Shown here: one piece after another, positions 14,336 to 36,274 of the stretch
Position numbering within the stretch: the first letter of the stretch is position 1
Layout: every line of letters begins with the position of its first letter
Assembly (NCBI RefSeq): GCF_003697845.1
Contig: NZ_RDQE01000005.1
Span: forward strand, 62,001 to 126,000
Source of the DNA: Halobellus captivus
GTDB lineage: Archaea; Halobacteriota; Halobacteria; Halobacteriales; Haloferacaceae
Direction of reading: 5' to 3'
DNA length: 64,000 bases
Notes under the pieces: generated by a model
Seen by the model: the letters and a program-made list of their open reading frames with translations, nothing else
The model's database searches: none
What the model was told of the DNA's origin: nothing
Program-made: the position numbers and the translations under genes

Positions 14336-15248
14336 CGTCTCCCTCCGTGGCCGCCGAGTCGCCCCCCGGACCCGGCGCGTCGTCCGCATCTCCGTCCACG
14401 CCCGCCGGCTCCGCCCGCGCCCGGATCGTCGCCATTCGCTCGCGGAGGTCCTCGTGGAGCACCTCGCGGTACTCCCCCGAGTAGTGGTCGGCGCGCGCCG
14501 CGAGCGCCAGCTTTCCGGCGAGCGCCCGCGCGGCCGACCCGCGGTCCTCGGGGCGGGTTCCCCTGACGAACTCGTGGGTGTAGATGATCCCGTGTTTCGG
14601 CGAGGGGGCTCGCCCGGAGAGATGCGCGAAGAGCGCGTCCTCCGCGCCGAGCACCTGAACCGTCCCCGAGGGCTTCTTCGCCAGCGGCTCCAGCCCGCCC
14701 GCGAGCGCGATCAGCCGCGCCGCGAGCTCCGGGCCGGCCATGTCCGCGAGGTTCGGCGCGACCGCGGGCGCGATCCGGTCGATCGTCGCCGCCAACGCGT
14801 CCCGCTCGTCGGCGAGGGCGGCCGCCCGCGCCGAAAGCGAGACGACCCGTCCGTCGAGGTCGCCGCTCGGCTCCCGCTCGGCGAGATCGCGAGCCCCCGC
14901 GATCCCCGTATCGACGTCGTCGAAGCGGCTCCCCGCCCACTCGGTCGCCCGTTCGGCCAGTTCGTTCGCGACGCGCTCGCAGTCGTCCATAGCACGAATA
15001 CTATGTTTTAACTGTTGGTCATCTGCCCTCTCTCGTTCTTTAACGACTTCTCGGGTAGTGTAAGTCGCTGCTTCGTGGAGTTTATCGTAGTATTCGTTTT
15101 TGTCCTCCGCAAAACCAGACTCAACGGCCTTTGTGGGCCAATCCTTTGGCGATTCTGTGTTTCCGCTGTCGATGGCTTTTCGAGCGGCTTCTAGGTCGTC
15201 AGGTGGGACTGATTCAAACCATCCTGAGTCGGCATCGGCGTCTGTCAT
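14328..15248 (-). CDS. nop5: Nop5/Nop56-58 box C/D RNP scaffold, hybrid of element-encoded N-terminus and native C-terminus
   Basis: 306 residues. The C-terminal Nop domain is recognised by FAHLSGRAPSPKHGIIYTHEFVRG and GKLALAARADHYSGEY; the middle is coiled-coil-like; the N-terminus (MTDADADSGWFESVPPDD) is the fibrillarin-binding part. Codons 1-86 (15248 to ~14991) are AT-rich with K/N/T choices like the adjacent island, whereas the rest is GC-rich like flpA. A GC-rich allele of the same 86 residues lies stranded at 35987-36274, aligning without gaps (about 55 of 86 identical by eye). The element therefore inserted at the codons for RAMDD and rebuilt the gene with its own promoter and 5' end. 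The frame is intact, so the protein is probably functional. Confidence 0.9.
   Translation of the reverse strand: MTDADADSGWFESVPPDDLEAARKAIDSGNTESPKDWPTKAVESGFAEDKNEYYDKLHEAATYTTREVVKERERADDQQLKHSIRAMDDCERVANELAERATEWAGSRFDDVDTGIAGARDLAEREPSGDLDGRVVSLSARAAALADERDALAATIDRIAPAVAPNLADMAGPELAARLIALAGGLEPLAKKPSGTVQVLGAEDALFAHLSGRAPSPKHGIIYTHEFVRGTRPEDRGSAARALAGKLALAARADHYSGEYREVLHEDLRERMATIRARAEPAGVDGDADDAPGPGGDSAATEGDDA
14983..15003. other. attL: recombination junction inside nop5
   Basis: Core TCGTCCA (14983-14989), six bases, then the arm GAATACTA (14996-15003). On the nop5 strand the arm and core encode S-I-R-A-M, so this arm is both coding sequence and probable integrase-binding site. It is the mirror image of the arm at attR. 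Confidence 0.75.
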
Positions 15249-15267
15249 ATACAGGATGGTGGACTCG

Positions 15268-15286
15268 AATTCGTATATGTATCCCG
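15268..15286 (-). promoter_or_regulatory. nop5 promoter supplied by the integrated element
   Basis: On the minus strand CGGGATACATATACGAATTCG-like sequence lies 23 bases upstream of the nop5 ATG. Nearly the same block (TCGTATAGGTATCCCG on the plus strand, 36298-36313) lies 24 bases upstream of the displaced native start. The block holds a TATA-like ATACATATA; its conservation in sequence and spacing between the two diverged copies suggests that it is the functional promoter of a nearly leaderless mRNA. Confidence 0.55.
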
Positions 15287-15361
15287 ATGTGGTGGTCTCG
15301 CTTAGTTTTTAGTCTAGACATTTTAGCAAAGAATATCACTTGTCAATAATAGACACAGAGT

Positions 15362-18175
15362 ATGGATACTTCGCATGGATCCAGATGGAACAAATGGGAT
15401 TTACATGTACATTCTCCTTCCTCGTTCCACGAAAATTTCAATTTGGAGCGATCACTCGGAGCTGAGGAAGACCATGAAGATGCTGTCTGGGAGCGCTACC
15501 TTGACGAATTAGAAGACATAGACGATATATCCTGTATCGGAATAACGGACTACTTCTCTGTTGAGGGTTATGAACGAGTTCAAGAGGCGATTGAACAAGA
15601 TGACCGGTTACAGAACTTCGACCTAGTTCTTCCAAATGTTGAACTACGCGTAGATCATTTCGTCACTAGTCGTTCAGGCGGTCATTCGTCGGAAGCCGTC
15701 GAAATGCATGTTCTCTTTAGTGACGAACTAGACCCTGTCAGAATTCGAGAGAATTTCATAAATCAACTCGAAGCAAAAAAGCCCGACGGAAATACAATGC
15801 CTCCCACTCGGGAAAACCTTGAACGGCTGGGTCAAAATTCTGAGTTCGATACGTATGATGATTACGATGACCCGTATATTGCTGGTTGTAACAGAATCAC
15901 CGTTGACGTTGATACGATCTATGAAGCGCTGGACAGCGATGTCTTTGAAGGTAAGTATCTCACTGTCTTAGTCGAAGACAACTGGGAAAAGATTTCTTGG
16001 GAAGGTCGGGCAGGTACACTTAGAGGAAGTCTCTTGGGCAAGGCCGACGCTGTATTTATCAGTAATTCAGATACGAGGGATTGGTTACTTGGCCGGACCG
16101 AAATGATGTCTACTGCTGAGTTTCGGAAAGCGTTCGGTAGTCTAAAACCGGCACTTAGAGGATCAGACTCACACGACTTTGACGATTTTTGCGTCCCCGA
16201 TAAGAATCGCTACTGCTGGATTAAGGCGGACACGACTTTTGAAGGACTAAAGCAGATCAAGTACGAACCGGGAGATCGAGTTTATATTGGTGAGTACGAC
16301 CCTCAGCGGCGTGTCTCAATCCATACGCCAAATAACGTGAATATTCGAGAGGGTGTAATAAATGACCGGCTGACTGTGTCAGATACCACTCTCCCTCTTA
16401 ATCCAAATCTCGTTACAGTAATCGGTGGTAAGGGGGCAGGAAAAACTGCGTTACTAGATTTAATTGCCAATTTTTATCAAAACAGGCACATTTCTGGGGA
16501 AGATGAAGAGATCGATGTTAATTCATTCATCCAACGGATTCAGGACGAAAATCCGGGCATTACGACAGAACTCGAATTCAATGGAGAAGACGTAGATCCA
16601 TTTGAGAAGTCAGTACTTGATGAAGAGTGTATCTCGCATTCGAATGTTGAGTATCTACCTCAAGGGAAGATATCTGAATATTGCCGGGATGAAGATCGGA
16701 TGCACGATCAGGTTCTGGAATTAATCCAGCAATCAGTTCGAACGACTGATTCAGAACTGATGGAACGTTTTGAGGAGAAACGCAATAGTATCCGCCATAT
16801 CGAGAAGGAACTCGAGGAATTAACGAACCGAATTCACGAGTATGACCCGGAAACAATTGATGAGCGAATTAGTGATGCGAAATCGGATCTAAACGCCGCA
16901 CGCGGCAAACTAGAAGATAAAGAACGGGAGATTGAGGAGTTTAGGGAAGAGCACGGAGATGAATTGCGGGACGAAAACTCCACAGAACTCCAGAACCAAT
17001 TAGATACTTATGATAAAGAGCTGCAAACAGTAGAGGAAATTAAATCTATTCTATCGGACCAACTCGAACGGCTTGGTGAGATTGAGGATTTCAATCGGGA
17101 TATTGGGAAGCTTAGATCCTTATCTGAAGAAACAGAGATTGAGGAGAATCTCGAAATAACCCAATTCTCTGTAGAGGAAGCCCGTTCAAAATTGCGTGAT
17201 TACGAACAAGCGATTGATGACGACATCTTGAGAATAACAGATCAACGAGAGCGTGTCCAAGACCAGCTAGACGATCTAGAAGATTTTGATCAAGAACTTT
17301 CTCAACTACTAAAAGAGAAACGAGAACAGCAGAAAGTCGTCGAGGAAGAAGAAAATAACGTCCAGTCAATAGAGACGGACTCCCAAAAAATCCAAGAGCT
17401 ACGAACTAAACGACGGAGCGAGTTCGTTAATTATGTAGATGCATATCACGACTTGAGGAACCTCTATTCATTAGTAATCTCTGAATTCGAAGCGGATCAG
17501 TCAGCAATTCTTGACGAAGTCAAATTCGATGCTAATTTAGACGTTATTGACGGTCTACAATCCAAGTTATATGACTTACTTGATGGGCGGAGTGTGAATA
17601 TCGCTGAAATTCAGCCAATAATCCAAATTGCACTAGATGCGATCGAAGGCAGTGAACAGTCAGAACATAATGCTGAAGCGTATCTTGAGGCAGCTCTGTC
17701 GTTCAAAGATCAGTTGTTAGCTAACGCTTCCACTGCGGAGTTTGAGCGACGCGTGTTTACTGGCAATTTCAAGCTATCAGAGCAGATTCTGCTAGAAGGA
17801 ACTCGAATGGAAGATCTATCTCTTGGACAGAAGGGAACGGTACTATTGAAGATCCTCCTCGCTCAAGATGAGAAGCCGCTGATTATCGACCAACCCGAAG
17901 AGAATCTCGACAATCGGTTCGTCTACAGAACCCTCAAAGACGCGTTCAAGGAGGCAAAAAAGAAGCGTCAGGTTATTATTGCGACCCATAATGCTAATTT
18001 GGTGGTGAATACGGACGCTGAACAGGTCGTTGTGGCGCAGTATGAGGAAAATGAGATATCGTTCAAGTCCGGTCCTCTGGAAGATGAGAGCATCAGAGAG
18101 GAAGTTACGACCGTATTGGAAGGGGGTAAAGAGGCCTTTGTTCAGCGCGAGGAGAAGTACGGGCTTGCTGAGTAA
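15362..18175 (+). CDS. TrlF-like protein: PHP phosphoesterase domain fused to SMC/RecN-type ATPase
   Basis: 937 residues. The N-terminus has the PHP metal motif WNKWDLHVHSPSSF (His15, His17), with further PHP-like patches CIGITDYFSVEGY and LRGSDSHDFDDFC (around 275). A Walker A, VIGGKGAGKTALLDLI, lies near residue 355, a ~230-residue coiled coil follows (about 465-690), and the ABC-type C-terminus has LSLGQKGTVLLKILLA (~820) and PLIIDQPEENLDNRFVYRTL (Walker B, ~840). This is the architecture of TrlF-family AAA-like ATPases, which occur in defence neighbourhoods; the PHP part may hydrolyse a nucleic acid or nucleotide. It sits alone at the element's left edge, divergent from nop5. Confidence 0.82.
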   Translation: MDTSHGSRWNKWDLHVHSPSSFHENFNLERSLGAEEDHEDAVWERYLDELEDIDDISCIGITDYFSVEGYERVQEAIEQDDRLQNFDLVLPNVELRVDHFVTSRSGGHSSEAVEMHVLFSDELDPVRIRENFINQLEAKKPDGNTMPPTRENLERLGQNSEFDTYDDYDDPYIAGCNRITVDVDTIYEALDSDVFEGKYLTVLVEDNWEKISWEGRAGTLRGSLLGKADAVFISNSDTRDWLLGRTEMMSTAEFRKAFGSLKPALRGSDSHDFDDFCVPDKNRYCWIKADTTFEGLKQIKYEPGDRVYIGEYDPQRRVSIHTPNNVNIREGVINDRLTVSDTTLPLNPNLVTVIGGKGAGKTALLDLIANFYQNRHISGEDEEIDVNSFIQRIQDENPGITTELEFNGEDVDPFEKSVLDEECISHSNVEYLPQGKISEYCRDEDRMHDQVLELIQQSVRTTDSELMERFEEKRNSIRHIEKELEELTNRIHEYDPETIDERISDAKSDLNAARGKLEDKEREIEEFREEHGDELRDENSTELQNQLDTYDKELQTVEEIKSILSDQLERLGEIEDFNRDIGKLRSLSEETEIEENLEITQFSVEEARSKLRDYEQAIDDDILRITDQRERVQDQLDDLEDFDQELSQLLKEKREQQKVVEEEENNVQSIETDSQKIQELRTKRRSEFVNYVDAYHDLRNLYSLVISEFEADQSAILDEVKFDANLDVIDGLQSKLYDLLDGRSVNIAEIQPIIQIALDAIEGSEQSEHNAEAYLEAALSFKDQLLANASTAEFERRVFTGNFKLSEQILLEGTRMEDLSLGQKGTVLLKILLAQDEKPLIIDQPEENLDNRFVYRTLKDAFKEAKKKRQVIIATHNANLVVNTDAEQVVVAQYEENEISFKSGPLEDESIREEVTTVLEGGKEAFVQREEKYGLAE

Positions 18176-18198
18176 CTAAAGAATAGAATTCTTTTTGG

Positions 18199-19290
18199 CT
18201 ATATTCCAAATTTGTAGATACGCTCGCGGTAGAGAGGTTCGATATCCTCATAGTAGCTGTGTATATAGTGGTCAATCCCACCAGCGGGATCCGTAGTCCC
18301 ACCAGCTGAGGTATCCCCTCGCATGTACTTGATTAATTCCCGATTCAGGTCCTGCTCAACACGCCAGAACGTAGTGAACCGGTGGCGACCGTAGTGCGAG
18401 GTAACTGCCCTGTGCTGCTGTGTTTCCTCATACTCCGGATGGAAGTGGCGCTTCCAAGCGAGGTTAATTGCTTCGTCGTCTACCTGTGAGTGGCTCGTAC
18501 GAGAGAGGAACAACCATGGCTGCTCATTGTCAGGCCGGATGAGTAGATAGTTCATCCAAAGTCGGCGAAGTTCCTCGTCAACAGGGAGAATTCGGGGGCG
18601 TTTTGATTTATTCCCTTTACGATCGTGGGGGATGTAGACAGCATTCTCAAACCGAGAGACCTGCGGTGAGGTTCCCATCTCCGGGTAATGATCGGCCACC
18701 TCGCTGTTGGTGATGTTCAGCTCGCTAATCTTGATGTTCGCCATCTCGCTGGCGCGCAGACCTAGTTTGAGCTGTGTTACGATGAACGCGCGGTCCCGAA
18801 TGTGCTTCACGTCTCGGACTATCCCCCGTAGGTCCTCAACCGGAATTCGGGGCGGTTCCTTCACTCGCCGAGTTGAGAGAGACAGTTTCTTTTTCGCGAT
18901 CATGAACGGGTTGTAATCTACTGGATGCGGAAACTCCGCCCCGTTCTGCCAGTACTTGTAGATTTTGTTCAGTTCCCAGAGCTTCTTCTTCGCCGTCCGT
19001 CGGGTGTTCCCCTTTTCATCCAGTTCCCGACGAACGAATCGCTTAACGTGGTCTTCATGGGGACAGGCAGGGTGGCGACCCTCTCCTTGCATGAACTCGC
19101 TCCACTCCTCGATCGTTCGCTCATAGGAGACTATGGTCCCCTCTGCGGGATCCTTTGGTTTCAGTACATCTTCAATGAACAAGCCGAACACGTCGACATC
19201 GACGTGATCGAACGTCGAAGCGTGGTCTGCTAATGGGTCTATCTCTCGGTCGAAGGCGTCTGCTAGTGCTTGGCGGTCGTTTTCGGACAT
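18199..19290 (-). CDS. Tyrosine recombinase (site-specific integrase)
   Basis: 363 residues. The N-terminal SAM-like core-binding domain spans about residues 25-120 and the catalytic domain about 145-360. Active-site residues: Arg179 in KLGLRASEMANI, a Lys-rich strand RKGNKSKRPRILPV, His299-x-x-Arg302 in SHYGRHRF, His341 in GGIDHYIH and Tyr346 or Tyr347. All catalytic positions are present, so it should be active. It is the obvious candidate to act at the att sites. The gene lies 3 kb inside the element and is last in a minus-strand run with two small partner genes, four bases after the nearest. Confidence 0.92.
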   Translation of the reverse strand: MSENDRQALADAFDREIDPLADHASTFDHVDVDVFGLFIEDVLKPKDPAEGTIVSYERTIEEWSEFMQGEGRHPACPHEDHVKRFVRRELDEKGNTRRTAKKKLWELNKIYKYWQNGAEFPHPVDYNPFMIAKKKLSLSTRRVKEPPRIPVEDLRGIVRDVKHIRDRAFIVTQLKLGLRASEMANIKISELNITNSEVADHYPEMGTSPQVSRFENAVYIPHDRKGNKSKRPRILPVDEELRRLWMNYLLIRPDNEQPWLFLSRTSHSQVDDEAINLAWKRHFHPEYEETQQHRAVTSHYGRHRFTTFWRVEQDLNRELIKYMRGDTSAGGTTDPAGGIDHYIHSYYEDIEPLYRERIYKFGI

Positions 19291-19294
19291 GGAT

Positions 19295-19801
19295 TCAACG
19301 TTTGTCGTTTTGCTCTAACTTTCGATCCCACACCTTTCGGGCGAATCCCCCAGCTGCGACGGCCATCAACACGGGATGATACACGTGCGGGTGGTCGGTA
19401 TGCCACTGGAGCCAGGTGTAGAACTCTTCCAGCGGCTGGAAGTACTCGAAATACACCGTCTGGAGCTTCCGAGGTTGGTTACGCCTCCCGACTTCGCCAT
19501 CCCGCAGACCAGTCAGATATCCCTCGATGTGTTCGGGAGCGGCCAACGCGTGATGTCGGCCAGCCTTCTGCATGAAGTTCTGAAGGTACCGACCTGCTTT
19601 CTCGTAGCGGTCCCGAGTAGATTTAGTGTTGAATACCGCAGTCTTCTCTTCGAAGTAGTTCGCCCACACATCCCGATCTGCATAGGCAGGTTCGTGGTTT
19701 TGGAGACGATATTTCGTCGGGACGCTATCAATATCCTTGTACACGCCCATTCGCTGGCGTACGTCGTTCGAAAGTCGGGGACGATTTTTCGGTGCAGCCA
19801 T
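19295..19801 (-). CDS. Integrase-associated protein resembling a stand-alone core-binding domain
   Basis: 168 residues, basic, mostly helical: DVWANYFEEKTAVFNTKSTRDRYEKAGRYLQNFM, PEHIEGYLTGLRDGE and TVYFEYFQPLEEFYTWLQWH. The pattern (T-x3-Y at a helix start, then an LxxFYxWL helix) is that of the N-terminal SAM-like domain of tyrosine recombinases, but no catalytic domain follows. The stop lies four bases before the full integrase, which has its own core-binding domain. It could be an accessory architectural or directionality factor. Decay of a second integrase is the alternative. Confidence 0.6.
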   Translation of the reverse strand: MAAPKNRPRLSNDVRQRMGVYKDIDSVPTKYRLQNHEPAYADRDVWANYFEEKTAVFNTKSTRDRYEKAGRYLQNFMQKAGRHHALAAPEHIEGYLTGLRDGEVGRRNQPRKLQTVYFEYFQPLEEFYTWLQWHTDHPHVYHPVLMAVAAGGFARKVWDRKLEQNDKR

Positions 19802-19803: not shown

Positions 19804-20265
19804 CTATGCTTCCTCAACGTCTCGGGCGATCTCGTCCTGGAGATAGTACTGTTCGTCTTCTACGCGGAGGTCATCACCCTCCATCTCATCCAAGTGTGTC
19901 GTAACTCGGGCGGGGACTGTCTCAACTAGGTGTTGGATAATTTCGTCGTAGATCGCTCCCGGATTCTCAGCAACGTATTCCTTGACTTCTCTCCGCTCGC
20001 TGTTGTAGACTGCTTCCTCTAAATCGCCAATCCTCTCACGGGCCCGGTCCAGTTCGGTCTTCAGTTCGTTCCGTTGCTGACGTAGTTCCCGATTCGTTTC
20101 GTCTGGTTCTACGTTGCTGGTGTCGAACTTCTTCAGCCCGGCTTCGACCATCGCCTCCATGAACTCCGACATTGATCGCATCCCGAGTTCTTCGCACTGA
20201 TTTTCCCATCGGTCGTACTGCTCCTCAGATGGGTAGGTCGCAGCCTGTTTGTAGTCGTCCCCCAT
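19804..20265 (-). CDS. Coiled-coil DNA-binding-like protein of integrase modules
   Basis: 153 residues. An N-terminal segment, YKQAATYPSEEQYDRWENQCEELGMRSMSEFMEAMVEAGLKKF, has the strand-helix-helix look of a ribbon-helix-helix protein; a charged coiled coil (about 60-95) follows, then a winged-helix-like end (NPGAIYDEIIQHLVETVPARVTTHLDEM). Related proteins commonly precede integrases in haloarchaeal elements as far as I recall. Two bases separate it from the next gene, so the three genes form an operon. Possible role: regulator or recombination directionality factor; not established. Confidence 0.65.
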   Translation of the reverse strand: MGDDYKQAATYPSEEQYDRWENQCEELGMRSMSEFMEAMVEAGLKKFDTSNVEPDETNRELRQQRNELKTELDRARERIGDLEEAVYNSERREVKEYVAENPGAIYDEIIQHLVETVPARVTTHLDEMEGDDLRVEDEQYYLQDEIARDVEEA

Positions 20266-20317: not shown

Positions 20318-20542
20318 CTACTCATCGTCTTCCTCACTGTCGTCGTCAGAGACAGCCTCTCGAAGTTCCTCACTGAGGTCCGGGTGATGCTCTTCAAGGA
20401 GTGCTGCGTCCCGAGAGAGGTTATCAATTTTTCGCCGGACCCGACTTACGACTGAGTAGTAGTACTCGTCGTTCACGTCCGCATCGCCAGAGATGATCTC
20501 ACGCTCCCGTTCAGTCAACAGGCCCCTGCGTTCGTCTGCCAT
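20318..20542 (-). CDS. Small acidic protein common in haloarchaeal elements
   Basis: 74 residues starting MADERRGLLTEREREIISGDADVNDEYYYSVVSRVRRKIDNL. The tyrosine/arginine-rich central helix and acidic tail (DDDSEEDDE) match a small family seen beside haloarchaeal integrases and proviruses. ATG 20542 is chosen because the family starts there; a longer in-frame reading to 20707 crosses the operator-like repeats. Function unknown; its promoter region contains three dyad motifs, so it is probably repressed by an element-encoded regulator. Confidence 0.6.
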   Translation of the reverse strand: MADERRGLLTEREREIISGDADVNDEYYYSVVSRVRRKIDNLSRDAALLEEHHPDLSEELREAVSDDDSEEDDE

Positions 20543-20572
20543 TGATTGGAAGCCAGTTATCGCCATGTACCT

Positions 20573-20633
20573 TACCGTATGTGGTTCATCTGTGATAAAA
20601 TAACCGCATGCGGTTATGTTACCATATTCGGTT
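20573..20633. promoter_or_regulatory. Operator-like array of three TACC-N6-GGTT dyads
   Basis: Three copies of a 14-bp dyad lie just upstream of the small gene at 20542: TACCGTATGTGGTT (20573-20586), AACCGCATGCGGTT (20602-20615, extended to the perfect 18-bp palindrome ATAACCGCATGCGGTTAT at 20600-20617) and TACCATATTCGGTT (20620-20633). Repeated half-sites at close spacing suggest cooperative binding of a small dimeric repressor, the nearby ribbon-helix-helix protein being a candidate. Confidence 0.6.
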
Positions 20634-20663
20634 CCCACTATTGACTTGGAACTGCTTTCCTTG

Positions 20664-20887
20664 CTACTCATCATCCTTCCAGCTGATCGGGAGGAAATGA
20701 GCTTCATCGTCCCTGATTTGGAGCTCTACTGCATCCGCTACAGCTGTATTGACTCCCAATGATTCGATTTCTTCCGACGTGAGGAATACTGCAACGCCGA
20801 TAGATCGCCCTTCGCATTGCGTGCGATACGTGCCGTTCGACCTTCTGGCTCTTCGCGGACAATTGCCGGGATCACGTTTGTCGCCAT
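20664..20887 (-). pseudogene. Small-protein gene with unresolved reading frame
   Basis: The minus-strand frame ending at 20664 encodes SNGTYRTQCEGRSIGVAVFL and TSEEIESLGVNTAVADAVEL, which looks like a real haloarchaeal small-protein core, but it has no good start codon after the preceding gene. The ATG at 20887, overlapping the TAA of the upstream gene, begins another frame (MATNVIPAIVREEPEGRTAR) that stops after ~49 codons. Either a frameshift has split one gene, or a non-ATG start is used. Confidence 0.35.
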
Positions 20888-26492: not shown

Positions 26493-26493
26493 G

Positions 26494-27489
26494 TCACCAC
26501 CACCGTTGGAACGGATCGTATTCCTCACCAGTGAGCAAGTGCTTCTTCATTTTGTACGCTTCGAGCCGCATCAGGTATTGATAGCTGACCTTCCGGTTCA
26601 GGTTCGGGTGCTCAACAGTCCGTTCCAACGTTTCTTCGAATGCCTTCGTGTACGTCTTTCGTCCGGACTCGTTCAACAGACAGGAGCCTAGTTCCGTCTC
26701 GAAATCGGCATCTGAAATCTGGTTTCGGTTCACCAACCGGAATAGGACCCGATCAGCGAGCACGGGTTTGAACAGGTCCGCGATATCGAGCGACAACGAG
26801 TACCGTCGCTCCCCTGGCTCGTGGAGGTAACTGATCGTCGGATCGAGTGCGGTCGCCCGGATCGCCGAGACGCAGTTGGCATAGACCAGCGAATTACCGA
26901 ACGAGATGAGGCTGTTGATCTCGTTGGGTGGTGGGTTGTACTTTCGTCGGCTGAGCTGGAACTCGCTTGGAAGGATTTCGTTGAAGCTCCGGTAGTAGGC
27001 TTTTCTCGCCGTCGCTTCGGTACCCAGTAGTTCATCGATAGGAAGTGAGTCGTCGACACGTGCGGCTGCCGCTTCCAGATCATCGATGACATCGTCGAGA
27101 TCGCAATCCCGGCCGTTGTAGTAGACGACATTTGTCCGCATATTGTGGATGCTTCCCCTCACAATCGCGGCGGCGAGCTGTCGTCGATGTTTGCTATCCT
27201 CGTAGGCGCGTACTTGGTTGACGACGGTCTTTCCGGAGGTCTGCCCGCGTTTCGGCATCACTGAACCCGAGTAGTAATCCTCCCACCCGAAGACGTGGAG
27301 TGCGACTGTGCGGTCGTTGAGAAACGACATCAGCCGCGTGTTGAAATCGATCTGGCCATGGAGGAAGAACGCCTCGGCGTTCTCGATTGGGATGTACTTC
27401 TTGTCGCCCCCGTCGTCGGGAACGAGTCTGAGCGTGTCGTCGCTTCGTTCGAGTCGGCCGTCCGAAAAGACGTGGTAGTTTCGGTCCAT
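26494..27489 (-). CDS. cas1: CRISPR integrase Cas1
   Basis: 331 residues from ATG 27489 (MDRNYHVFSDGRL), the family start. The beta-rich N-terminal domain (ENAEAFFLHGQIDFNTRLMSFL) is followed by the helical catalytic domain with FGNSLVYANCVSAIRATALD, the HEPGERRYSLSLDIADLFKP block (metal-binding His and Asp) and LNRKVSYQYLMRLEAYKMKKH at the end. This is the type I-B Cas1b group. It integrates prespacers with Cas2. Located between cas4 and cas2 with only 1-2 base gaps. Confidence 0.96.
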   Translation of the reverse strand: MDRNYHVFSDGRLERSDDTLRLVPDDGGDKKYIPIENAEAFFLHGQIDFNTRLMSFLNDRTVALHVFGWEDYYSGSVMPKRGQTSGKTVVNQVRAYEDSKHRRQLAAAIVRGSIHNMRTNVVYYNGRDCDLDDVIDDLEAAAARVDDSLPIDELLGTEATARKAYYRSFNEILPSEFQLSRRKYNPPPNEINSLISFGNSLVYANCVSAIRATALDPTISYLHEPGERRYSLSLDIADLFKPVLADRVLFRLVNRNQISDADFETELGSCLLNESGRKTYTKAFEETLERTVEHPNLNRKVSYQYLMRLEAYKMKKHLLTGEEYDPFQRWW

Positions 27490-27491
27490 GG

Positions 27492-28040
27492 TTAACACCA
27501 ACAGAAGTCGTGGTACGCACACGAGTCACAGAACGGTTTTTCCTCGGCCGGTGGCGGCGAGGACTGACTGACGATGTCATGAATCCCACGGATCGCCGTT
27601 TTGATTTTCTCTCTTCGTTCGTCAGTAAGGTCGACAGGCTCTCGTTTGCGTTCTCGGGGATGGGCCAAGACGCCATCTCGCTGGATGTCGGCCACACGGT
27701 CGAGATACCAGAGGTAGTACGACAGCTGCATCTCGGCCGGTTCAGTCAGCGTTGAGGAGGGTTTGACCTCGACGACGCGGCCGTCGTCCAACAGATCGAG
27801 TGAGATCATCCCGAGGTGGAGGTTTTCCCGCTTGTCGCTGTAGGCCGTGTCGTCGACGCGAGTGCCACGAACGACAGTCGGGTTCTCGCGGTCGATTTCG
27901 AGATTCCGGCTCTCGAACCAAAGTTCGCGCTTACAGACGTAGTAGTACTGTATCATGACGCCCGTCACGCGGAACGGGTCGTCAACCGGCTTGCCGCGAG
28001 CTGTGGCGAGGAGTCGATCGACCGGATCAGCGTCGGTCAT
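27492..28040 (-). CDS. cas4: CRISPR-associated exonuclease Cas4
   Basis: 182 residues, RecB-like nuclease with an Fe-S cluster. The first cysteine is in YYYVCKRELWF (~residue 32); three more form FCDSCAYHDFCWC at the C-terminus. The nuclease core shows HLGMISLDLLDDGRVVEVKPS (Asp and ExK). It trims prespacers and checks PAMs before integration. The start overlaps the cas3 stop (ATGA), confirming an operon. Confidence 0.95.
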   Translation of the reverse strand: MTDADPVDRLLATARGKPVDDPFRVTGVMIQYYYVCKRELWFESRNLEIDRENPTVVRGTRVDDTAYSDKRENLHLGMISLDLLDDGRVVEVKPSSTLTEPAEMQLSYYLWYLDRVADIQRDGVLAHPRERKREPVDLTDERREKIKTAIRGIHDIVSQSSPPPAEEKPFCDSCAYHDFCWC

Positions 28041-30670
28041 ATAATTCGCCTCTCCGCGGTACTGTCCGGAATAACGAATCCTGTGTTCTGGTCGAAATAC
28101 TGGCTCAATCCGTGTTCACGGGTATCGAGACACAGGACATCCGTGTCCTCATGAACCGGATTCAGTTGTCCGATTTTTTCCTTCTTATCGGATTCACCGC
28201 GGTAGATCGGCATCGACACGCGTAGCTCTTTGAGCTCATCCATCAGTCGACGAACACGGTCAAACTCGTAGTGCTTCCACGCGTCACGTACCTGTTCTAC
28301 CTGCCTCCGTTCAGCTTCAGTACGACAAATGATGATGTCCACTGCGTTTCGCTGATCGATCAGCGATAGCTCTCTCAATTTATCTCCACGTAGATCGTCG
28401 ACATACTCAACGTATTCCTGTTTACCGACATTTTTGTCGGCATGTAGTCGTCGATAATATTCTGTGACCGCTGTGCGGGCAACCGCTGTCTCCGAAAGAG
28501 GTGTATCAGCTTCACGGATGGAATCCAGCGTTTCGGCTGCAACGGGAAGCAGTGTCGCTCCGCGATTATAGACTGCTTCTGCCGGCGTTTTTTTCTGCTC
28601 GTCTGGAACATCGAGCCACCAGATGATGACCCGCCCTTGTTCTCGTTCAAACGACCGATTACAGCGACCGGCCGCTTGGACGATACTGTCGATTGGGGCC
28701 AAGTCGCGGTAGACGCGGTCGAAGCTGATGTCAACACCGGCCTCAATGAGTTGCGTCGAGACTGTAATAAGACCGTGTTCGTCGTCAGTGAGTTCTTTCG
28801 CTGTTTCGATAAGTTTGAGCCGATCTAGCGGACGAAGACGCGTCGAGAGATGAAGTATCGATACATCGCTTTGGTTTTTGATACGAGTAGCGAGTGCCTC
28901 CGGATCGATGTCAGCTGTCGTATCGGCAGCTTCGAGTTCGTTGGCATAGACATCCCCAACACTCAGGAGCGAACGTCGGGGACCAGTGAGTTCGTCAAAG
29001 AGTGTGCGCGCACTATCAATTGTGTTACAGACGGCAAGGGTTGACGCTCCAGCATCGACCGCACTGAGCAGTTCGGCTCCTGCGTCGGGGTATGCTTTCG
29101 GCTCGGATTGGGTTTCGAGATACCGTTCGGCCGATACATCGAGTTCGTACTGAACGCGTTCGGTCGCCTCGAAGTATACATCCGGATCATCGACCAGTTC
29201 GCTTACGTTGCCTATTCGCTCGGTTCCTGCATCGAACAGCTGTGGCTGCGTGGCAGTCATAGCGATCACCGTCGCGTTGTACTGCTCGGTCAGAATTGTA
29301 ACGAGGCGAGGGATGAGCTTCCACCAGTCAAGTGGTAGGCTCTGTGGTTCATCGAGGATCACAACGCTGTCACGGAGTGCAGAGATCTTCATCGACTGCT
29401 TGTTGGCCGGGCCAGCGAGGCTTTCGAACAGCTGGACGAAGGTTGTCACGGTAAGCCCCGCACGCCAACTTTCGGCGAGCATCCCGGCCACGTCGTCGTT
29501 CCTGTCTGCCTTATCGGCGTCTACGTCGTCTTCGTCGACGATTTTGGTTTCCGAGAGGTGGTGGTGAGCCGTCAGTAACCGACCGAGGGTGTCAGTCTCG
29601 TAGATTTCTTCGACCTCATTGACCACCTGATCGATGATACTGGTAAACGGCAACGCATAGACGATACGCTCGCCGCCGAGTTTATCACGGATCGTCTGTG
29701 CGGCCGACAGCCCGGAGAGTGTTTTTCCCATACCGGTTGGCAGTGTGAGCGTCGCTACACCGCCGCCCCCCTCGGCAAACTCCTCCGCATTCGCTATGAC
29801 AGCTGATCGTGCGCGTGACCGGTAGTGATTCAATCGTTCTGTTCTGGAGCCATCCGGATCAGCAGGCGATGACGATTCGAGATCGTCAACGTACTCGTCT
29901 AATACCCGCATCGATGGCCGTTCTGCTTTGTAGGGTTCCCCCGAGCTAGCATCCTTGCTCCGGCTCGCTGCACTCGTCTTATCCGCAAGCACGAGCGATC
30001 CCCAGCATTCGAGAACCAGTCCATAACAGGAATCGGACAGCGAGTCACGACTGATTGTCGTCCCGCTCTCCGTGGCAACAGCAGCGGCAATCTCGTCAAG
30101 AAGCTCTTTGTACGAATACCGAAAATCGTCCCACGACCCGTGGCTATCAGTTGCACCGTTGAAAATATCGGTCGCAAGCTCAGGAACGTGTTCTTCGATG
30201 TCGTTCAACTGCATGGCGATTGCTGCCTGTTGCTGTTCGGCATTGGTCTGGGCACCCCCCGTTGAGTTCTCCGAGTTGTACGCACGGTTGTGGATGTACT
30301 GAGTCACATCCGGCAGCCGACCGTGGTGTTTGGCAACCGCGACGAAGCCGGCTAGGCAGGTCTCAGTTTCAAATCCCTGTGTGTCGAGGGCGTAATACGC
30401 TGCGAACGAGCCGATTGGGGCATGGTATCGACACGGCTTGTACTCAGGTTCGGTGTTGTGTCGAAGGTACTCCTGAAAGAACGTCGTCGCTTTTCCGAAG
30501 TCGTGAACGTAAGCAAGCGTCTTAACGACTCGCTGTAGCGATTTATCCGCAGGCGTTGATGCCTCGTCAGGCACGATTTTACTGGCTCGTCGGGCGACAT
30601 CATCCAGATGCTCTTGAAGATGGACACCATCATGACCGTCTTCGGGTGGGTGGGAGTACCGAACAGACAT
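28037..30670 (-). CDS. cas3: CRISPR-associated helicase-nuclease Cas3 (HD + SF2)
   Basis: 877 residues. The N-terminal HD nuclease shows HLDDVARRASKI, AYVHDFGKATTFFQ (~residue 55) and VAVAKHHGRLPD. The helicase has LTLPTGMGKTLSGLSAAQ (Walker A, ~315), VVILDEPQSLPLDWW (DExx) and VSTQLIEAGVDISFDRVYRD followed by QAAGRCNR (motifs V and VI). It is recruited by Cascade to degrade target DNA. One-base overlap with the cas5 stop; all motifs appear intact. Confidence 0.97.
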   Translation of the reverse strand: MSVRYSHPPEDGHDGVHLQEHLDDVARRASKIVPDEASTPADKSLQRVVKTLAYVHDFGKATTFFQEYLRHNTEPEYKPCRYHAPIGSFAAYYALDTQGFETETCLAGFVAVAKHHGRLPDVTQYIHNRAYNSENSTGGAQTNAEQQQAAIAMQLNDIEEHVPELATDIFNGATDSHGSWDDFRYSYKELLDEIAAAVATESGTTISRDSLSDSCYGLVLECWGSLVLADKTSAASRSKDASSGEPYKAERPSMRVLDEYVDDLESSSPADPDGSRTERLNHYRSRARSAVIANAEEFAEGGGGVATLTLPTGMGKTLSGLSAAQTIRDKLGGERIVYALPFTSIIDQVVNEVEEIYETDTLGRLLTAHHHLSETKIVDEDDVDADKADRNDDVAGMLAESWRAGLTVTTFVQLFESLAGPANKQSMKISALRDSVVILDEPQSLPLDWWKLIPRLVTILTEQYNATVIAMTATQPQLFDAGTERIGNVSELVDDPDVYFEATERVQYELDVSAERYLETQSEPKAYPDAGAELLSAVDAGASTLAVCNTIDSARTLFDELTGPRRSLLSVGDVYANELEAADTTADIDPEALATRIKNQSDVSILHLSTRLRPLDRLKLIETAKELTDDEHGLITVSTQLIEAGVDISFDRVYRDLAPIDSIVQAAGRCNRSFEREQGRVIIWWLDVPDEQKKTPAEAVYNRGATLLPVAAETLDSIREADTPLSETAVARTAVTEYYRRLHADKNVGKQEYVEYVDDLRGDKLRELSLIDQRNAVDIIICRTEAERRQVEQVRDAWKHYEFDRVRRLMDELKELRVSMPIYRGESDKKEKIGQLNPVHEDTDVLCLDTREHGLSQYFDQNTGFVIPDSTAERRII

Positions 30671-31467
30671 CAGACGAACACCACAGTTCGACCGTCGACA
30701 CTGGCAGCTGACGTGTTTGTAACTTTGAGAGACTCGGCATCAGGATTATACGCGTAGTTGGTGAATCTCGTTGTTGTCCGACCACCAGAGTCAGCTTTCA
30801 TAAACGCTGGTGATTCTTCGATCTGACAGCGTGTGCCTGCCTCAAGGACGACATCGTCGACCGCATTCGGTACGGCCGAATCGACCTCGATAGTGCCGGT
30901 CTGAGGGCCATCCTCAATATCGAACTCACCGTGATACTCGATATCTGCGAGGTGTTCGGAGAGACCGAGACTCGGCACATAGTGAGATTCCCCTGAAGCA
31001 AGCGTTTTACGCAGCTCGGAATACCATTGATCGTCAGCGAGTGCGATATCGATACGGTAGGCCGGATCGACCAGTACCTCGTAGTTGTGCTGCTGCCGGA
31101 GGGTCGTCGGGTCAGGTAGTTTGATGCTGATTTTTCCGCGACCATTGAGTGACTGTAAGTTTCCAGCAGCAGTCGAGAGCGTGTTCATCGGCATGTTAAC
31201 CGTTCGAATCTCACGAACAGGCTCAATTGCGACTGCTGAGTTATCAGGCCCGAACAGGTCGTAGTAACCATCCCGTTCGATTCCAAGGACTGCTGCGAGG
31301 AGTCCAGCAGCGGTTGTACGAGGAATGATCCGATAGGTTTGCTTGACGATGTTGCCCTCGATCCGTCGGAAGTGCCCCCACGGGCCCCGAACGGTAAACG
31401 AGAGACAGCGATCAGGCTGGTCGTCGTCTTCGTCGTCCGTCCAGCCGTCCAGCGATTGTTGGGACAT
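30670..31467 (-). CDS. cas5: Cascade subunit Cas5 (type I-B)
   Basis: 265 residues. The N-terminal RAMP strand reads RCLSFTVRGPWGHFRRIEGN, with the family pattern SFxVxGxxxHFR; YRIIPRTTAAGLLAAVLGIERDGYYD follows. It caps the 5' handle of crRNA in Cascade. Close to Haloferax Cas5h. Preceded by cas7 with a two-base gap. Confidence 0.94.
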   Translation of the reverse strand: MSQQSLDGWTDDEDDDQPDRCLSFTVRGPWGHFRRIEGNIVKQTYRIIPRTTAAGLLAAVLGIERDGYYDLFGPDNSAVAIEPVREIRTVNMPMNTLSTAAGNLQSLNGRGKISIKLPDPTTLRQQHNYEVLVDPAYRIDIALADDQWYSELRKTLASGESHYVPSLGLSEHLADIEYHGEFDIEDGPQTGTIEVDSAVPNAVDDVVLEAGTRCQIEESPAFMKADSGGRTTTRFTNYAYNPDAESLKVTNTSAASVDGRTVVFV

Positions 31468-31469
31468 CG

Positions 31470-32552
31470 TTAGGCCGTGTCGTCGTCACTTGGGAGTGTC
31501 GCAGTCTGTTCGTCGTAGACATCGATTTTCTCGACGGCATCCGCTCCGAGGGCGTCTTCGAGTGCGTCGTGAAGCACCGCTGGTCCACCAAGATCGCCAT
31601 CGTAGGAGAGTTCTAATACGTCGCTGGCAACAAACCGAACTTGGTTGATTCTGTCACTCGCCCCATCGAGTCGATTCACGAGGCCTGTCACGTCAAGCGT
31701 GAGGTCACGAACCGTTCGAAGTTCCTCGTCAGGTTTCGAATGTTCGTCGTCGAGTTCGAGATCACGGTCAAGACCGCCAAGGTGGAAACTCTCGTCGGCG
31801 TACTCGACACGGAAGTAGATCCGCGGTTCCTGTCCGACTTTGCTACGACTAATAGTCTGATTCTTGATCGCGCGCCAGCACAGCGTATCGAGCCGTTTGA
31901 CATCCGCTTCAGTGAGGTTTGTGTCCGCCGCACCGTGTTCGTCGACGAGTCCGTGGAACCGAATCAGCCCGTACTGAATCCGATGGTCGTCAAGATCGAA
32001 CCCGCCCTGCTGTTTGTTCTCCTGTGTGGCGATCACGCTCGTCAGGCTGTCGTACTCCTCGTTTTCGTTGACGGCGTGTATCGATTTGCCGGGTGAGAAC
32101 TGAACGGGGCCAGTGAAGTGATCCGGCAGGTGCTTGGCATATACCTCGTCGGTATCCACTGACATCGTCGCACCAAAGTATCGCACGTCGACGCTTTCAT
32201 TCAGGAACTCCCCGAACACGTCGTCGCGGAACTCGTCGGCTCCCTCGTCATCATCGAGATCGTAGTCGTCGGGCTCGACAGCCTTGAGCCGATTTTCGAG
32301 GAGCTGCCCGCGTGTGTACTGATCGCCGTCTTCCTGTACGTTTCGGATGTAGACGCCGTGGCCGTCATCGTCGAGTTGGTCGCGGAGATACCGCTTCAGG
32401 CGAACGTCGGTAACGATTGCTTGCTGGGTTTGTGGATCGATTCGCGGCCGGTTAGCACCGGACAGTGGGTTGCCGTTTGGATTTGCATCAACGGCATCGT
32501 ACAGGAAGACGATTTCTGAGCGGTTCGTTACTGGATCAGGTGTGTCGGACAT
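31470..32552 (-). CDS. cas7: Cascade backbone subunit Cas7 (Csh2 type)
   Basis: 360 residues. The N-terminus NRSEIVFLYDAVDANPNGNP, then LSGANRPRIDPQTQQAIVTDVRLKR, is diagnostic of Csh2/Cas7 of subtype I-B. Further blocks are VRYFGATMSVD and GPVQFSPGKSIHAVNENEEYD. It multimerises along the crRNA. Follows cas8b after one base. Confidence 0.96.
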   Translation of the reverse strand: MSDTPDPVTNRSEIVFLYDAVDANPNGNPLSGANRPRIDPQTQQAIVTDVRLKRYLRDQLDDDGHGVYIRNVQEDGDQYTRGQLLENRLKAVEPDDYDLDDDEGADEFRDDVFGEFLNESVDVRYFGATMSVDTDEVYAKHLPDHFTGPVQFSPGKSIHAVNENEEYDSLTSVIATQENKQQGGFDLDDHRIQYGLIRFHGLVDEHGAADTNLTEADVKRLDTLCWRAIKNQTISRSKVGQEPRIYFRVEYADESFHLGGLDRDLELDDEHSKPDEELRTVRDLTLDVTGLVNRLDGASDRINQVRFVASDVLELSYDGDLGGPAVLHDALEDALGADAVEKIDVYDEQTATLPSDDDTA

Positions 32553-32553
32553 G

Positions 32554-34707
32554 TTAGTGTTCCTCCTCGATTTCGTCTACATCGCTTTCGTCCCGGTTCC
32601 ACGGGTGGTCGTTCATTCCATACGTCACCCCAAGGGCGTAGTAGAAGCGGAGATCGTCGGTTTCGATCTCCCACTCTTCCGGATCGGGTTTGAGGATTGT
32701 ATCCCGAAGCCGATCGACGATGTGATCCGCCTTCGTGCCGGGATAATTCCCTTGCTGTTTCTTTTCCTGACGCGTATAGGTCAACGTCTTAGCGACAGTC
32801 TCCTGTGTTACCTTCTTGATTCGGGATCGAGTGATCGATTTGACTGGATACTGGTCAACGAGTGTCGTCGACCGATCTTCGCTATATTCTTGATAACTTC
32901 CGATGTCGCCAACGAGTGCGCCGAGTAGGAACGCCCCGCGGCGTTGGCTCGTCACGGAATCCGGATCGTCGTCATGGGCTGGCGACAGTGCAGGCGTTTC
33001 GTTGATGAACGATTCGAGTTTCGGTGCGGCAGGGTGGCCCCCATCCGCGATTGGTATTTCATCTAGTGATGGCATGATGTATCTGTCATAGGTTGGTTCG
33101 TGTGCAATCGGTTCGTTACTCGGATCGGTCGGTCTCAATAGCTGAAGTTCGTTGTCTGCCAGCGCACAGAGTTGCGCGAACTGGCTGGCGATCAAAAATG
33201 ACGGGAAACCCTCGTGTTCGTCGTCATCGGTCTGCTCGTCAACGATTCGGTTGACGTACTCTTCGAGGAGCATGTCGACTGCAATCGGCTCGCCACTCAG
33301 AACACTGATGAGTGCCTTAATTCGTGGATCGTCTGCATCGGCTTCGTCATCGTCGCGTTCGGAGAACGTCTGATAGAAGTACCAGCCTGTCGAGACGGCG
33401 TGTAACTGTTCATCGCTCGTTGAGAGCAGCCCCCACTTCTCGTTTGTTGGAAGCGGTGCGGTCCACTCCGCCTCAGATTTCATATTGAATGCCGAGACAC
33501 TTTCGACAAGACGGTTGTGAGTAAACGCGAGTTCTTTCGGGTAGTGGAGACGTCCGTTTAGCGTCTCGCCGAACACGTCGTATCGAGACATTTGGTGCGG
33601 CATGACTGCCGAAATGTAGAACCGAAGGTCTCGGGTGTTGATATCAGCATCCCGTTCATCTTTGTAGGCATCTTCGATTGGTGTTGTATCATCGTTTTCC
33701 ACTGCATGGTATAGCAGTCCATACAGCCGATGTACCTTGTTGGCTGTCAGTCGACCGAACACGTATGGCAGGTAGTACACCTTCGCGCCGAACGTCCGGT
33801 AGGTACAGGCTTCGACGAACGTCCCGGCATTCATCACGGTGATTGCGGCGTCCTCCGAAATCGGATGTGAACGCCACGCTTCTTCGATGTCGAGTCCAGG
33901 GAATTTTTCCAGCTGTTTGCCGAGGAAGTAGTTCTGCGGATCTTCAGAAGTTCCGACCGTCCGAGCGGGCAGTCCCGTAACGAGGTCGGTCGCATCTCCC
34001 GACGAATCGTCTGCCTTATTCTTCGTGACGAGCTTTGCAAGCTTCCGCTGTCGCATCGCCTCGTTGAACACGTCGAGATCACCGGGCCACTGGTAGTCTC
34101 CGTCCGACGCGGTTTTGACTTGGACCGTTAACAGCGATGTGGCCGATTCGCCGCCGAGCTTCCGCGTGATCGTCTCTTCGATCGTTTCGAGTATGGTCTC
34201 GTCCTCACCGAGTTCAGCTAATCGTTCGATAATCCATCCATCGGTGTGGTCGTCGGCTGCTTTCGTCACGACTTCATCGACAGCCCACCTTGTCAGCCGT
34301 TCTTTCGCGTAGCGTGCCAGCTTTTCTGGGTCACTGTCCTGACCGGCTTGGTGGGTCACGCTATGATCAATTCCGGCGGCTGCCGAATACTTACAGTGGC
34401 CAACCTGCTGAATCAGGTCGTCAGAGTACCTCGTTATCAGCACTGGATCGAGATCAGCAGCCAGCCGTGGCTCGTCACCTGACATGTCCACCCGGACGAC
34501 GATTAGGCTATCATCGGTGTCAACGAGATCGCTAGCTGCGTCGGGCGTGAGATACGGTGCGTACTCGCCGCCACCTGTCGTGGCGAGCGTGTAGAGCTTA
34601 CCGTAGAGGTATTGTAGATCTCGAAGTGACCCGATTGGCGAGTTCGGAAGTTCGTCTTCTAATACCTCTGCTGGGTACTTCTCCCGAAACTCATCAGGCG
34701 AAAGCAT
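32554..34707 (-). CDS. cas8b: Cascade large subunit Cas8b (Csh1 type)
   Basis: 717 residues, the expected size for haloarchaeal Cas8b. Recognisable blocks are YFLGKQLEKFPGLDIEEAWR, PYVFGRLTANKVHRLYGLLYH and FLLGALVGDIGSYQEYSED near the C-terminus. The protein recognises the PAM and recruits Cas3. Sequence varies widely within the family, so identification also rests on its place between cas6 and cas7. Its start overlaps cas6 by 14 bases. Confidence 0.92.
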   Translation of the reverse strand: MLSPDEFREKYPAEVLEDELPNSPIGSLRDLQYLYGKLYTLATTGGGEYAPYLTPDAASDLVDTDDSLIVVRVDMSGDEPRLAADLDPVLITRYSDDLIQQVGHCKYSAAAGIDHSVTHQAGQDSDPEKLARYAKERLTRWAVDEVVTKAADDHTDGWIIERLAELGEDETILETIEETITRKLGGESATSLLTVQVKTASDGDYQWPGDLDVFNEAMRQRKLAKLVTKNKADDSSGDATDLVTGLPARTVGTSEDPQNYFLGKQLEKFPGLDIEEAWRSHPISEDAAITVMNAGTFVEACTYRTFGAKVYYLPYVFGRLTANKVHRLYGLLYHAVENDDTTPIEDAYKDERDADINTRDLRFYISAVMPHQMSRYDVFGETLNGRLHYPKELAFTHNRLVESVSAFNMKSEAEWTAPLPTNEKWGLLSTSDEQLHAVSTGWYFYQTFSERDDDEADADDPRIKALISVLSGEPIAVDMLLEEYVNRIVDEQTDDDEHEGFPSFLIASQFAQLCALADNELQLLRPTDPSNEPIAHEPTYDRYIMPSLDEIPIADGGHPAAPKLESFINETPALSPAHDDDPDSVTSQRRGAFLLGALVGDIGSYQEYSEDRSTTLVDQYPVKSITRSRIKKVTQETVAKTLTYTRQEKKQQGNYPGTKADHIVDRLRDTILKPDPEEWEIETDDLRFYYALGVTYGMNDHPWNRDESDVDEIEEEH

Positions 34708-35509
34708 CGGCTCCCTCCAGTTCGCTCTCGCCTGGTCGCGTTTTCTCCGTGATATTCACGAACCCGAGTCCCAGCGAGTTCCGTTCACCAAGCCCGCAAT
34801 CCAACGCGAGATTGAGGTGCCGGCGATGATGATCGTCCCGAACCGTATAGGAGAACTCCCACTTGCTCAGGACGTAGGTCATCTCCTGACCCTCGGTGAC
34901 GGTCACCGGAACGGCGAACGTCTTGATGAGTTCGTAGCCGTCGAACAGATCGCCATCGACATCGCTCGGCCCCGGCAGGTGGTCGTGGGCGAAGCGGTCG
35001 TGTTTCTGATCGAGGTTGTCCTCCAGCTGCTTACGCAGTGGCTCCATCGAGTGCTCTGGTCGCCAGAACACGGCAGTGTCGCCGCCGGGATGGTCGATCC
35101 CGTACTCCTCGCATCGCCACGGCGGAATCCGAACCAAGAGGCCAGTGCCGGTTTCGATCGTCCCTCGCGTGCCTGGTTCGCCAACATCGGGGTCGAGCGA
35201 AGTCACGTCATCGACGTGGAACGGCATCTCACCGATGTTCAGCTCCGGCTCTTCAAGCAGATCGGCAGCGACGTTAGCCAGTAGCTCCTCCTCTGGCGAA
35301 GCGACCAACAGTTTACGGTCGTCACCCTCCTCCATGTCGTAGGGGGGAAACGGGTTTGAGTAGGCGAACCCTGGCGGCTCGCCGTCGTCGTGTCGTTCGC
35401 CGTAGGTGGTCCCCTCAAGTGCGTCCCAGAGACGGCTGCGCAGCTTGTGGTGGTAGTCGTTCTGGTAAGCGGCATCCGCGCGTGCGGACAGATGTGCCAT
35501 TATACGCAC
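34694..35509 (-). CDS. cas6: crRNA-processing endoribonuclease Cas6
   Basis: 271 residues of double ferredoxin-like fold. It starts MRIMAHLSARADAAYQNDYH and ends with the Gly-rich loop ALDCGLGERNSLGLGFVNI, the G-rich signature of Cas6. A His near residue 20 (NDYHHKL) is a candidate catalytic base, as in Haloferax Cas6. It cuts pre-crRNA in the repeat, leaving the 8-nt handle. First gene of the cas operon; the gap upstream (35510-35986) holds its promoter. Confidence 0.94.
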   Translation of the reverse strand: MRIMAHLSARADAAYQNDYHHKLRSRLWDALEGTTYGERHDDGEPPGFAYSNPFPPYDMEEGDDRKLLVASPEEELLANVAADLLEEPELNIGEMPFHVDDVTSLDPDVGEPGTRGTIETGTGLLVRIPPWRCEEYGIDHPGGDTAVFWRPEHSMEPLRKQLEDNLDQKHDRFAHDHLPGPSDVDGDLFDGYELIKTFAVPVTVTEGQEMTYVLSKWEFSYTVRDDHHRRHLNLALDCGLGERNSLGLGFVNITEKTRPGESELEGADAFA

Positions 35510-35767
35510 CCGGATGACTCACCTCTGTAGCGGGAAAGCATACGGCCTATCATTCAAACAACGAATACAAAAAGGGACGCAAAGGTCAGTGAAAGTAAAT
35601 CTACACACGGGTCGTCTATGGACTGTAAAACTAACTCGCTTAGATCAGTTGCTAGTGCCCGTGATGAATACGACCGGAGTTCTACGGCCAGTTACTTAGG
35701 CACACCCCTAACGGGAAGCAAAACTTCTCGGGTTGAATTCCTGAAGAATGGCGGTTGAGCATGACCG

Positions 35768-35876
35768 ATAGTGATTACTTCGAGTCTTTACCGCTGTGAC
35801 GATCTGCATCTTTGGTGAGAGCTGTTGAAATGACGTCTTTCGACACCGTCCAGAAACTATTCGCAGTAATCACTAT
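35768..35876. mobile_element. MITE-like element, 109 bp with 12-bp terminal inverted repeats
   Basis: Bounded by ATAGTGATTACT (35768-35779) and its perfect reverse complement AGTAATCACTAT (35865-35876), with some further similarity inward. It encodes nothing. The remaining gap 35510-35986 between cas6 and the element's end has no gene that I can support. No clear target-site duplication was seen, so it may be an old insertion or simply a long hairpin. Confidence 0.5.
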
Positions 35877-35986
35877 GAGACGCCTTCCTGAATTATGTGG
35901 AACAGACCGTTCGGCTTGCTGTACTTGGCGATTTATGCTGGATTCTATTAACCGATTGATATTTCAATAGAGCTAATCGGAATTAT

Positions 35987-36274
35987 CTATACTAGTATTC
36001 TGGCCATCGTCCAGAGGGCGCGGACCGCATGGATCAGCTGCTGGTCGTCCGCGCGCTCGCGCTCCGCGACGGCCTCGCGGGTGGCGTGGAGGCTCGCCTC
36101 GTGAAGCCGGTCGTAGTAGTCGTCGACGTCGTCCGCGAAGCCGGACTCGACGGCGAGACGCGGCCAGTCCGCGGGTGACGCCGCGCTCCCGCGTTCGATC
36201 GCGTCGCGGGCGGCAGCGGGGTCGTCGGGCGGAACGGACGCGAACCAGCCCGCGTCGCTCTCGTCGGTCGTCAT
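35987..36274 (-). pseudogene. Displaced native 5' end of nop5
   Basis: The frame starts MTTDESDAGWFASVPPDD and matches residues 1-86 of the intact nop5 at 14328-15248 without gaps; after RA it diverges into LWTMARILV and stops at TAG in element DNA. Its GC-rich codons match the chromosome, so this is the original gene start, cut off by the insertion. Its own promoter block (36298-36313) survives, so a 95-residue truncated product could still be made. The 2-3 bases next to the att core differ in number from the restored gene. Confidence 0.9.
35993..36013. other. attR: recombination junction at displaced nop5 fragment
   Basis: Arm TAGTATTC (35993-36000), six bases TGGCCA, then core TCGTCCA (36007-36013). 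Joined to attL, the circular element would carry TAGTATTC-N6-core(7)-N6-GAATACTA, a symmetric dyad of the kind bound by tyrosine recombinases. Confidence 0.75.

Follow-up and report, generated by a model that had tools for sequence, protein, structure and literature searches.

A nop5 gene in the window, by which we mean the whole 64,000-nucleotide stretch of DNA analysed, is interrupted at codon 87 by a GC-poor island of 21 kb (~14990-36003) and is present as a mosaic of an island-borne and a native part. We consider it highly probable (roughly 0.94) that this is a site-specific integrative island that inserts at a ATGGACGAC core in nop5 and supplies its own promoter and N-terminal domain, keeping nop5 functional. 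All 145 high-quality genomes examined in the window's family contain the target gene.

At the left junction, the chimeric nop5 (14328-15248, minus strand; Pfam Nop E 6e-37) consists of element codons 1-86 fused in frame to native codons 87-306; downstream of it lies the host gene flpA, which encodes a fibrillarin-like methyltransferase (13697-14335, minus strand; Pfam PF01269 E 2e-49). The element-supplied promoter region and codons 1-86 occupy 14991-15283 (minus strand); these codons have 49.6% GC and a GC3 of 0.44, and the ~35 bp upstream are likewise AT-rich. At the right junction lies a second nop5 5' end (35987-36274, minus strand) of 86 native codons and a short tail, with 74% GC and a GC3 of 0.92; this stranded piece (codons 1-86 at 36008-36274, minus strand) has its native promoter just upstream and an element-derived stop. 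The two 5' ends have the same orientation, align without gaps over 86 codons and have in common a CATATACGA/CCTATACGA motif ~25-35 nt upstream of the ATG. GC content falls from ~70% outside to 42-62% exactly between the two junctions, within surrounding DNA of 66-75% GC. The first-pass annotation had proposed a GC-rich nop5 promoter with codons 1-86 stranded at the far side, an AT-rich allele of that part joined in frame to the native rest at ~14990, a gap-free alignment of the two alleles and an AT-rich island with an integrase between them; composition, alignment and the protein-family matches of the integrase bore this out in every part. Elsewhere in the window, at 49994-52000, GC dips locally (56-63%) after a tRNA-Gly, which marks a possible separate insertion.

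In five related Halorubrum genomes (G033, G007, G001, G022 and G012), nop5 is uninterrupted, and the match to the window up to 14990 runs straight into the match from 36007, at 82-91% nucleotide identity. Relatives with the two pieces in place and no island between them, which would have spoken against an insertion, were thus not what this comparison returned: their nop5 is in one piece and the window flanks are joined. The flanks of the G024 island are likewise contiguous in G035, with a 15-bp overlap there at the core, and the Halopenitus island of G117 is missing from G118, G117 still having its native 5' end as a frameshifted remnant. A search for other genomes with a second, truncated nop5 5' end, as the first-pass annotation had suggested, gave 13 genomes from several families, including that of the window (G000). 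The others are G024, G117, G125, G136, G165 (decayed and displaced), Natronomonas sp. LUM.42 (G174/G370), QS_8_65_32 (G175, on two contigs), G382, G235, G301, G198 (on two contigs) and G431. When a single contig holds both copies at the locus, the partial one lies upstream in the same orientation and stops near the same codon, and the cut point is identical wherever both copies are well preserved. Because the flanks are contiguous in five relatives and the two-piece arrangement recurs in 13 genomes, chance can be excluded as an explanation of the split gene. Carriers of the element 5' end include Halorubrum californiense DSM 19288, H. yunnanense Q85, Halorubrum sp. Atlit-26R, Halopenitus persicus and Halolamina salifodinae. 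A stranded piece was not found in G006, G051 and Halolamina (G105), two of these being near contig ends; a second nop5 match in G006 (C67), which spans residues 164-259, was rejected as such a piece. In G125 (L110), a 1-kb insert with two small toxin-antitoxin-like genes lies between nop5 5' ends that are identical from ~codon 20, a near-identity that suggests gene conversion after insertion.

The attachment sites are highly regular. In most islands attL is (A/G)CATAGTATTCGTGCNATGGACGAC; that of the window, CATAGTATTCGTGCTATGGACGAC (14982-15005, minus strand), comprises the left arm and the shared core and is exact in several genera. In G382, G235, G301 and G198, attR consists of ATGGACGAC followed by element sequence with ACGAATACTAT, and the element side reads AGAATACTAT in G431, CACGAATACT in G165 and AGAATACTAG in the window, where attR (35987-36028, minus strand) passes from native TCTGGACGA into the right arm of the element, TGGCCAGAATACTAGTATAG. 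The right arm ACGAATACTAT is the reverse complement of the left arm ATAGTATTCGT (an 11/11 inverted match in G382), and the centre of symmetry falls within ATGGACGAC, which is common to attL, attR and the empty sites. Judged by sequence, inverted arms around ATGGACGAC are the layout expected of a tyrosine recombinase core; clear arm symmetry was not seen in attB. With up to 3 mismatches allowed, a class-wide scan recovered the att sequence in 22 of 391 genomes versus 2 of 391 for the reversed pattern, and with at most 1 mismatch it was found in 13 genomes from three families. An att match in Patescibacteria (L072) lies outside nop5 and was taken as chance.

In most attR cases a stop follows shortly after the core, from the element side. 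When the flanks were joined in silico, six of the seven genomes tested (G024, G174, G382, G235, G301 and G431) yielded a native Nop5 that is intact, and the seventh, the window, a frameshift; there the junction of the stranded piece carries a net change of +2 nt and reads GCC CTC TGGACGA rather than GCC ATGGACGA. The N-terminal domain of archaeal Nop5 contacts fibrillarin. By alignment with archaeal Nop5 chains of known structure (4by9 and 3nmu), the core encodes A-M-D-D at the start of the coiled coil, so that the element supplies the N-terminal domain and the host the coiled coil and the Nop domain.

The island encodes a tyrosine integrase of 363 aa (18199-19290, minus strand; Pfam PF00589/PF02899), whose R...HxxR...Y residues are conserved in the alignment and whose best NCBIfam match is XerA/XerC-like, below the cut-off. 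Beside it are a 168-aa relative of the integrase N-terminal domain that lacks the catalytic domain (19295-19801, minus strand; hhalign 94.5%, E 7.6e-8) and a 153-aa protein (19804-20265, minus strand). This adjacent trio recurs, with its order kept, in related islands with intact modules and adjoins nop5 in the window genome, G006, G174, G175, G235 (partly decayed) and G382. Integrases at least 73% identical to that of the window adjoin nop5 in all cases checked (G006, G024, G174, G235 and G382); relatives at 35-62% identity sit elsewhere, and tRNA targets for these were rejected, no tRNA being found in the stretches scanned. With an intact catalytic integrase, a fixed target, empty-site counterparts and a shared core, the window island has the features of a site-specific tyrosine-recombinase island. 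In Natronomonas LUM.42 and QS_8_65_32 (L073/L074), the element nop5 begins ~10-20 bp past the integrase stop and may therefore be cotranscribed with the integrase. The integrase is truncated N-terminally in G024 and was not seen in the islands of G117, G136 and G125; since these lack an intact integrase, some copies are probably immobile. A sister clade of integrases lies near mutY in G132, G014, G092 and G089. The G132 integrase is bracketed by a complete mutY and a stranded 3' end (8567-9568 and 24990-25404 of the joined loci L153-L154), a layout that suggests the same strategy at a 3' end; self-comparison for split targets of other integrases gave a result for mutY only.

The cargo of the nop5 islands is mainly antiviral defence. 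The window island holds a CRISPR array (22757-26127) of 52 repeats of 30 nt with spacers of 32-38 nt, and a cas operon (26232-35509, minus strand) with cas6, cas8b, cas7, cas5, cas3, cas4, cas1 and cas2, recognised by Pfam and NCBIfam (Csh2 E 2e-125, Csh1 E 3e-100, Cas1 E 6e-84, and others). The complete set of cas1-8, Csh1/Csh2 and the array identify a type I-B system. A TrlF-family PHP/AAA-like ATPase (15362-18175, plus strand; NCBIfam NF045780 E 4e-159; PADLOC Ppl E 7e-32) is a further candidate for defence cargo. The same cas operon is present in the nop5 islands of G235 and G301, in the same order and with Cas7 and Cas1 ~70% identical, and in that of G431, where it is inverted. Other islands carry a Pbe system with a methyltransferase (G174), a type IV restriction enzyme and PDC-S54 (G024), an LmuB-like ATPase (G117) or PDC-S31 (Atlit-26R), and a few have non-defence cargo, such as a metal-transport ATPase (G105). 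A 6-kb nop5 insertion without the trio in G136 (L211) contains tricarboxylate-transporter-like, metallo-hydrolase-like and regulator-like genes. Of the ~53 type I-B loci across the window's family, the one in the window is the sole example at nop5, and the idea that nop5 is the usual home of these systems was rejected. Elsewhere than in the island, the window genome encodes another type I-B Cas7 (G000:C3:95576-96469). Comparison of the CRISPR spacers with the available loci gave 16-nt matches only, which were taken as chance.

Phylogenetic analysis separates the two parts of the gene. A tree built from codons 1-86 places the element 5' ends of seven hosts in a single clade (99/98), that of the window with those of six others; the hosts are five Halorubrum, one Halopenitus and one Halolamina, apparently three genera. 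The stranded pieces group with relatives of their hosts, that of the window with G033 (93/89) and that of G024 with the G035 group (97/98). A tree of the codons after 86 disperses these seven hosts among native genes, and forcing them together cost 142 log-likelihood units (p-AU 2.5e-76). Element 5' ends have dN/dS values of 0.10-0.30 and are therefore kept as coding sequence, under purifying selection.

These results bear directly on the possibility that the nop5 5' end was duplicated in tandem long ago and that unrelated DNA entered later between the copies, the outcome that the first-pass annotation had named as fatal to its proposal. A duplication would account for two 5' ends in direct orientation and might seem to fit the nearly identical ends of G125. 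We regard it as extremely improbable: the grouping of the stranded pieces with host relatives and the clade of AT-rich ends across hosts, a clade that the C-terminal part rejects, exclude it, relatives have a single copy with joined flanks, GC3 differs greatly between the copies and the breakpoints fall at the same att core. It is also very unlikely that a foreign nop5 5' end arrived together with the island by homologous recombination, without site-specific recombination at nop5. Haloarchaea readily recombine, and five genomes with a single 5' end, G172 (L094), G091 (L172), G121 (L175), G128 (L176) and G140 (L177), carry a short, AT-rich patch resembling att in a nop5 that otherwise looks native and is GC-rich; yet such an allelic replacement would leave no native 5' end stranded beyond the island and would give no fixed core with inverted arms. 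The patches themselves are possibly scars, given that an island would be lost if its two 5' ends recombined upstream of att, a form in which allelic replacement may apply to these cases; alternatively, they are element 5' ends that are ageing.

A remnant of a self-transmissible virus or conjugative plasmid, as opposed to a mobile island of its own, is less improbable than either of these but still unlikely. Archaeal integrases come mostly from viruses and plasmids (PMC8371274), and a 129-aa ORF beside the trio in the window island (20318-20707, minus strand), also present in the H. californiense island at 81% identity, matches a viral family of unknown function (phrog_26393, E 2e-19). However, the integrase was absent from 50,697 phage records and from IMG/VR contigs, its best match on plasmids was partial and at 40%, and structural, replication or transfer genes were not recognised in the ten or so islands examined. 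Direct searches for a source were no more productive: a viral origin was rejected, the att pattern, like the integrase, having no matches in IMG/VR or the phage records, and so was a plasmid origin, for which the searches gave no more than a Natrinema megaplasmid with an ordinary nop5 and the 40% integrase match.

If the island is a site-specific integrative element, as we favour, a circular form would recombine through the tyrosine integrase between attP and the ATGGACGAC core in nop5 (codons 87-89), probably assisted by the two co-encoded proteins of the trio. Integration would cut the remainder of nop5 off from its native promoter and N-terminal domain and, in the same event, provide those of the element, fused in frame to the coiled coil and Nop domain of the host, the last codons of the element domain being the attP arm; nop5 would then be expressed from the element promoter. 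The native 5' end would be left at the far end of the island, closed by the element-encoded stop, and excision would restore the native gene as long as this stranded piece stayed intact. Once the stranded piece has decayed, as in the window, the host would depend on the island. Excision from the window would probably break nop5, because the rejoined flanks are frameshifted, if the base change is real; on sequence grounds this copy looks locked in, and its present-day mobility is doubtful.

Replacement of the 5' end of a gene by an integrating element has bacterial precedents, among them SXT, which supplies prfC with a new promoter and N-terminus. SXT inserts by a tyrosine recombinase at the 5' end of prfC, a conserved translation-related gene (PMC2791158), and the parallel drawn in the first-pass annotation stands as a likeness, in that a tyrosine recombinase acts in both and the 5' end of a conserved gene is replaced by the element. 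SXT/R391 elements are bacterial, ~100 kb and conjugative, whereas the nop5 islands are archaeal, span 1-21 kb without recognised conjugation genes, have the recombinase trio and replace the whole N-terminal domain; the window island targets nop5, not prfC, its integrase, with XerA/XerC-like as best family match, is no near-identical copy of Int(SXT), and conjugation genes were not found in it. The parallel extends to dusA islands, in which element sequence replaces the 5' end of an RNA-modification gene, the original is left at the far side and excision restores the gene (PMC4482086). These work in the same way but are bacterial; the nop5 islands differ in the trio, the mainly defensive cargo and the exchange up to a domain boundary (86 codons), and we set the two apart by target.

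Other systems share single features. IntSNJ2 of haloarchaeal pleolipoviruses is likewise a tyrosine integrase in an operon with two small helpers, but SNJ2 has a tRNA target and coiled-coil and MarR-like helpers (PMC8371274), whereas one presumed helper of the nop5 trio is an integrase-domain paralogue; membership of the IntSNJ2 family calls for at least 30% identity over 60%, and the phage collection, which may not include SNJ2, gave no match. GInts and Tn554-like elements resemble the nop5 islands in having several recombinase-related proteins and a small protein, cargo and protein-gene targets (PMC5385486). GInts, not found in archaea, encode three integrases and GinD in ginABCD (PMC5385486), unlike the single catalytic integrase, domain paralogue and small protein seen here. 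In Thermococcales, pTN3 inserts in the 5' half of a gene that is then expressed from the element side, but its target is a tRNA gene and no coding sequence is replaced (PMC8371274). Haloarchaeal type I-B systems beside integrases on mobile or proviral DNA have been described (PMC12596717); the proviral ones are incomplete, and neither the nop5 site nor a defined island family was found in that study. Archaeal protein-gene att sites listed in a 2021 review are in genes for HMG-CoA reductase, cation efflux and an AsnC regulator (PMC8371274). In the open-access papers searched, a scope that leaves most subscription journals aside, nop5 was not found as an integration target, and to that extent the earlier claim of no previous description held. 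The nop5 islands are a new archaeal family using a strategy of 5'-end replacement already known in bacteria from SXT in prfC and the dusA islands; they have an unusual target, a recombinase arrangement not matched here to a described one, and CRISPR-Cas cargo.

A broader reading, to which we give somewhat less than even odds, is that defence islands across the class hold a core RNP gene hostage: the fibrillarin-facing N-terminal domain is swapped, the native piece decays and loss of the island and its immune systems would mean loss of Nop5, with sister integrases acting likewise on other core genes, such as mutY at its 3' end. The decay of stranded pieces makes such stabilisation testable. The islands also provide att sites in archaeal protein genes whose dyad symmetry is clear, a point that a review of archaeal tyrosine recombinases had not settled (PMC8371274, section 19), and the precise att site offers a means of detecting, dating and testing transfers. 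In haloarchaea, the nop5 islands serve as mobile carriers of entire CRISPR-Cas loci and of further immune systems, and they make a near-universal RNP protein a mosaic whose N-terminal domain travels horizontally and by which nop5 phylogenies are misled.
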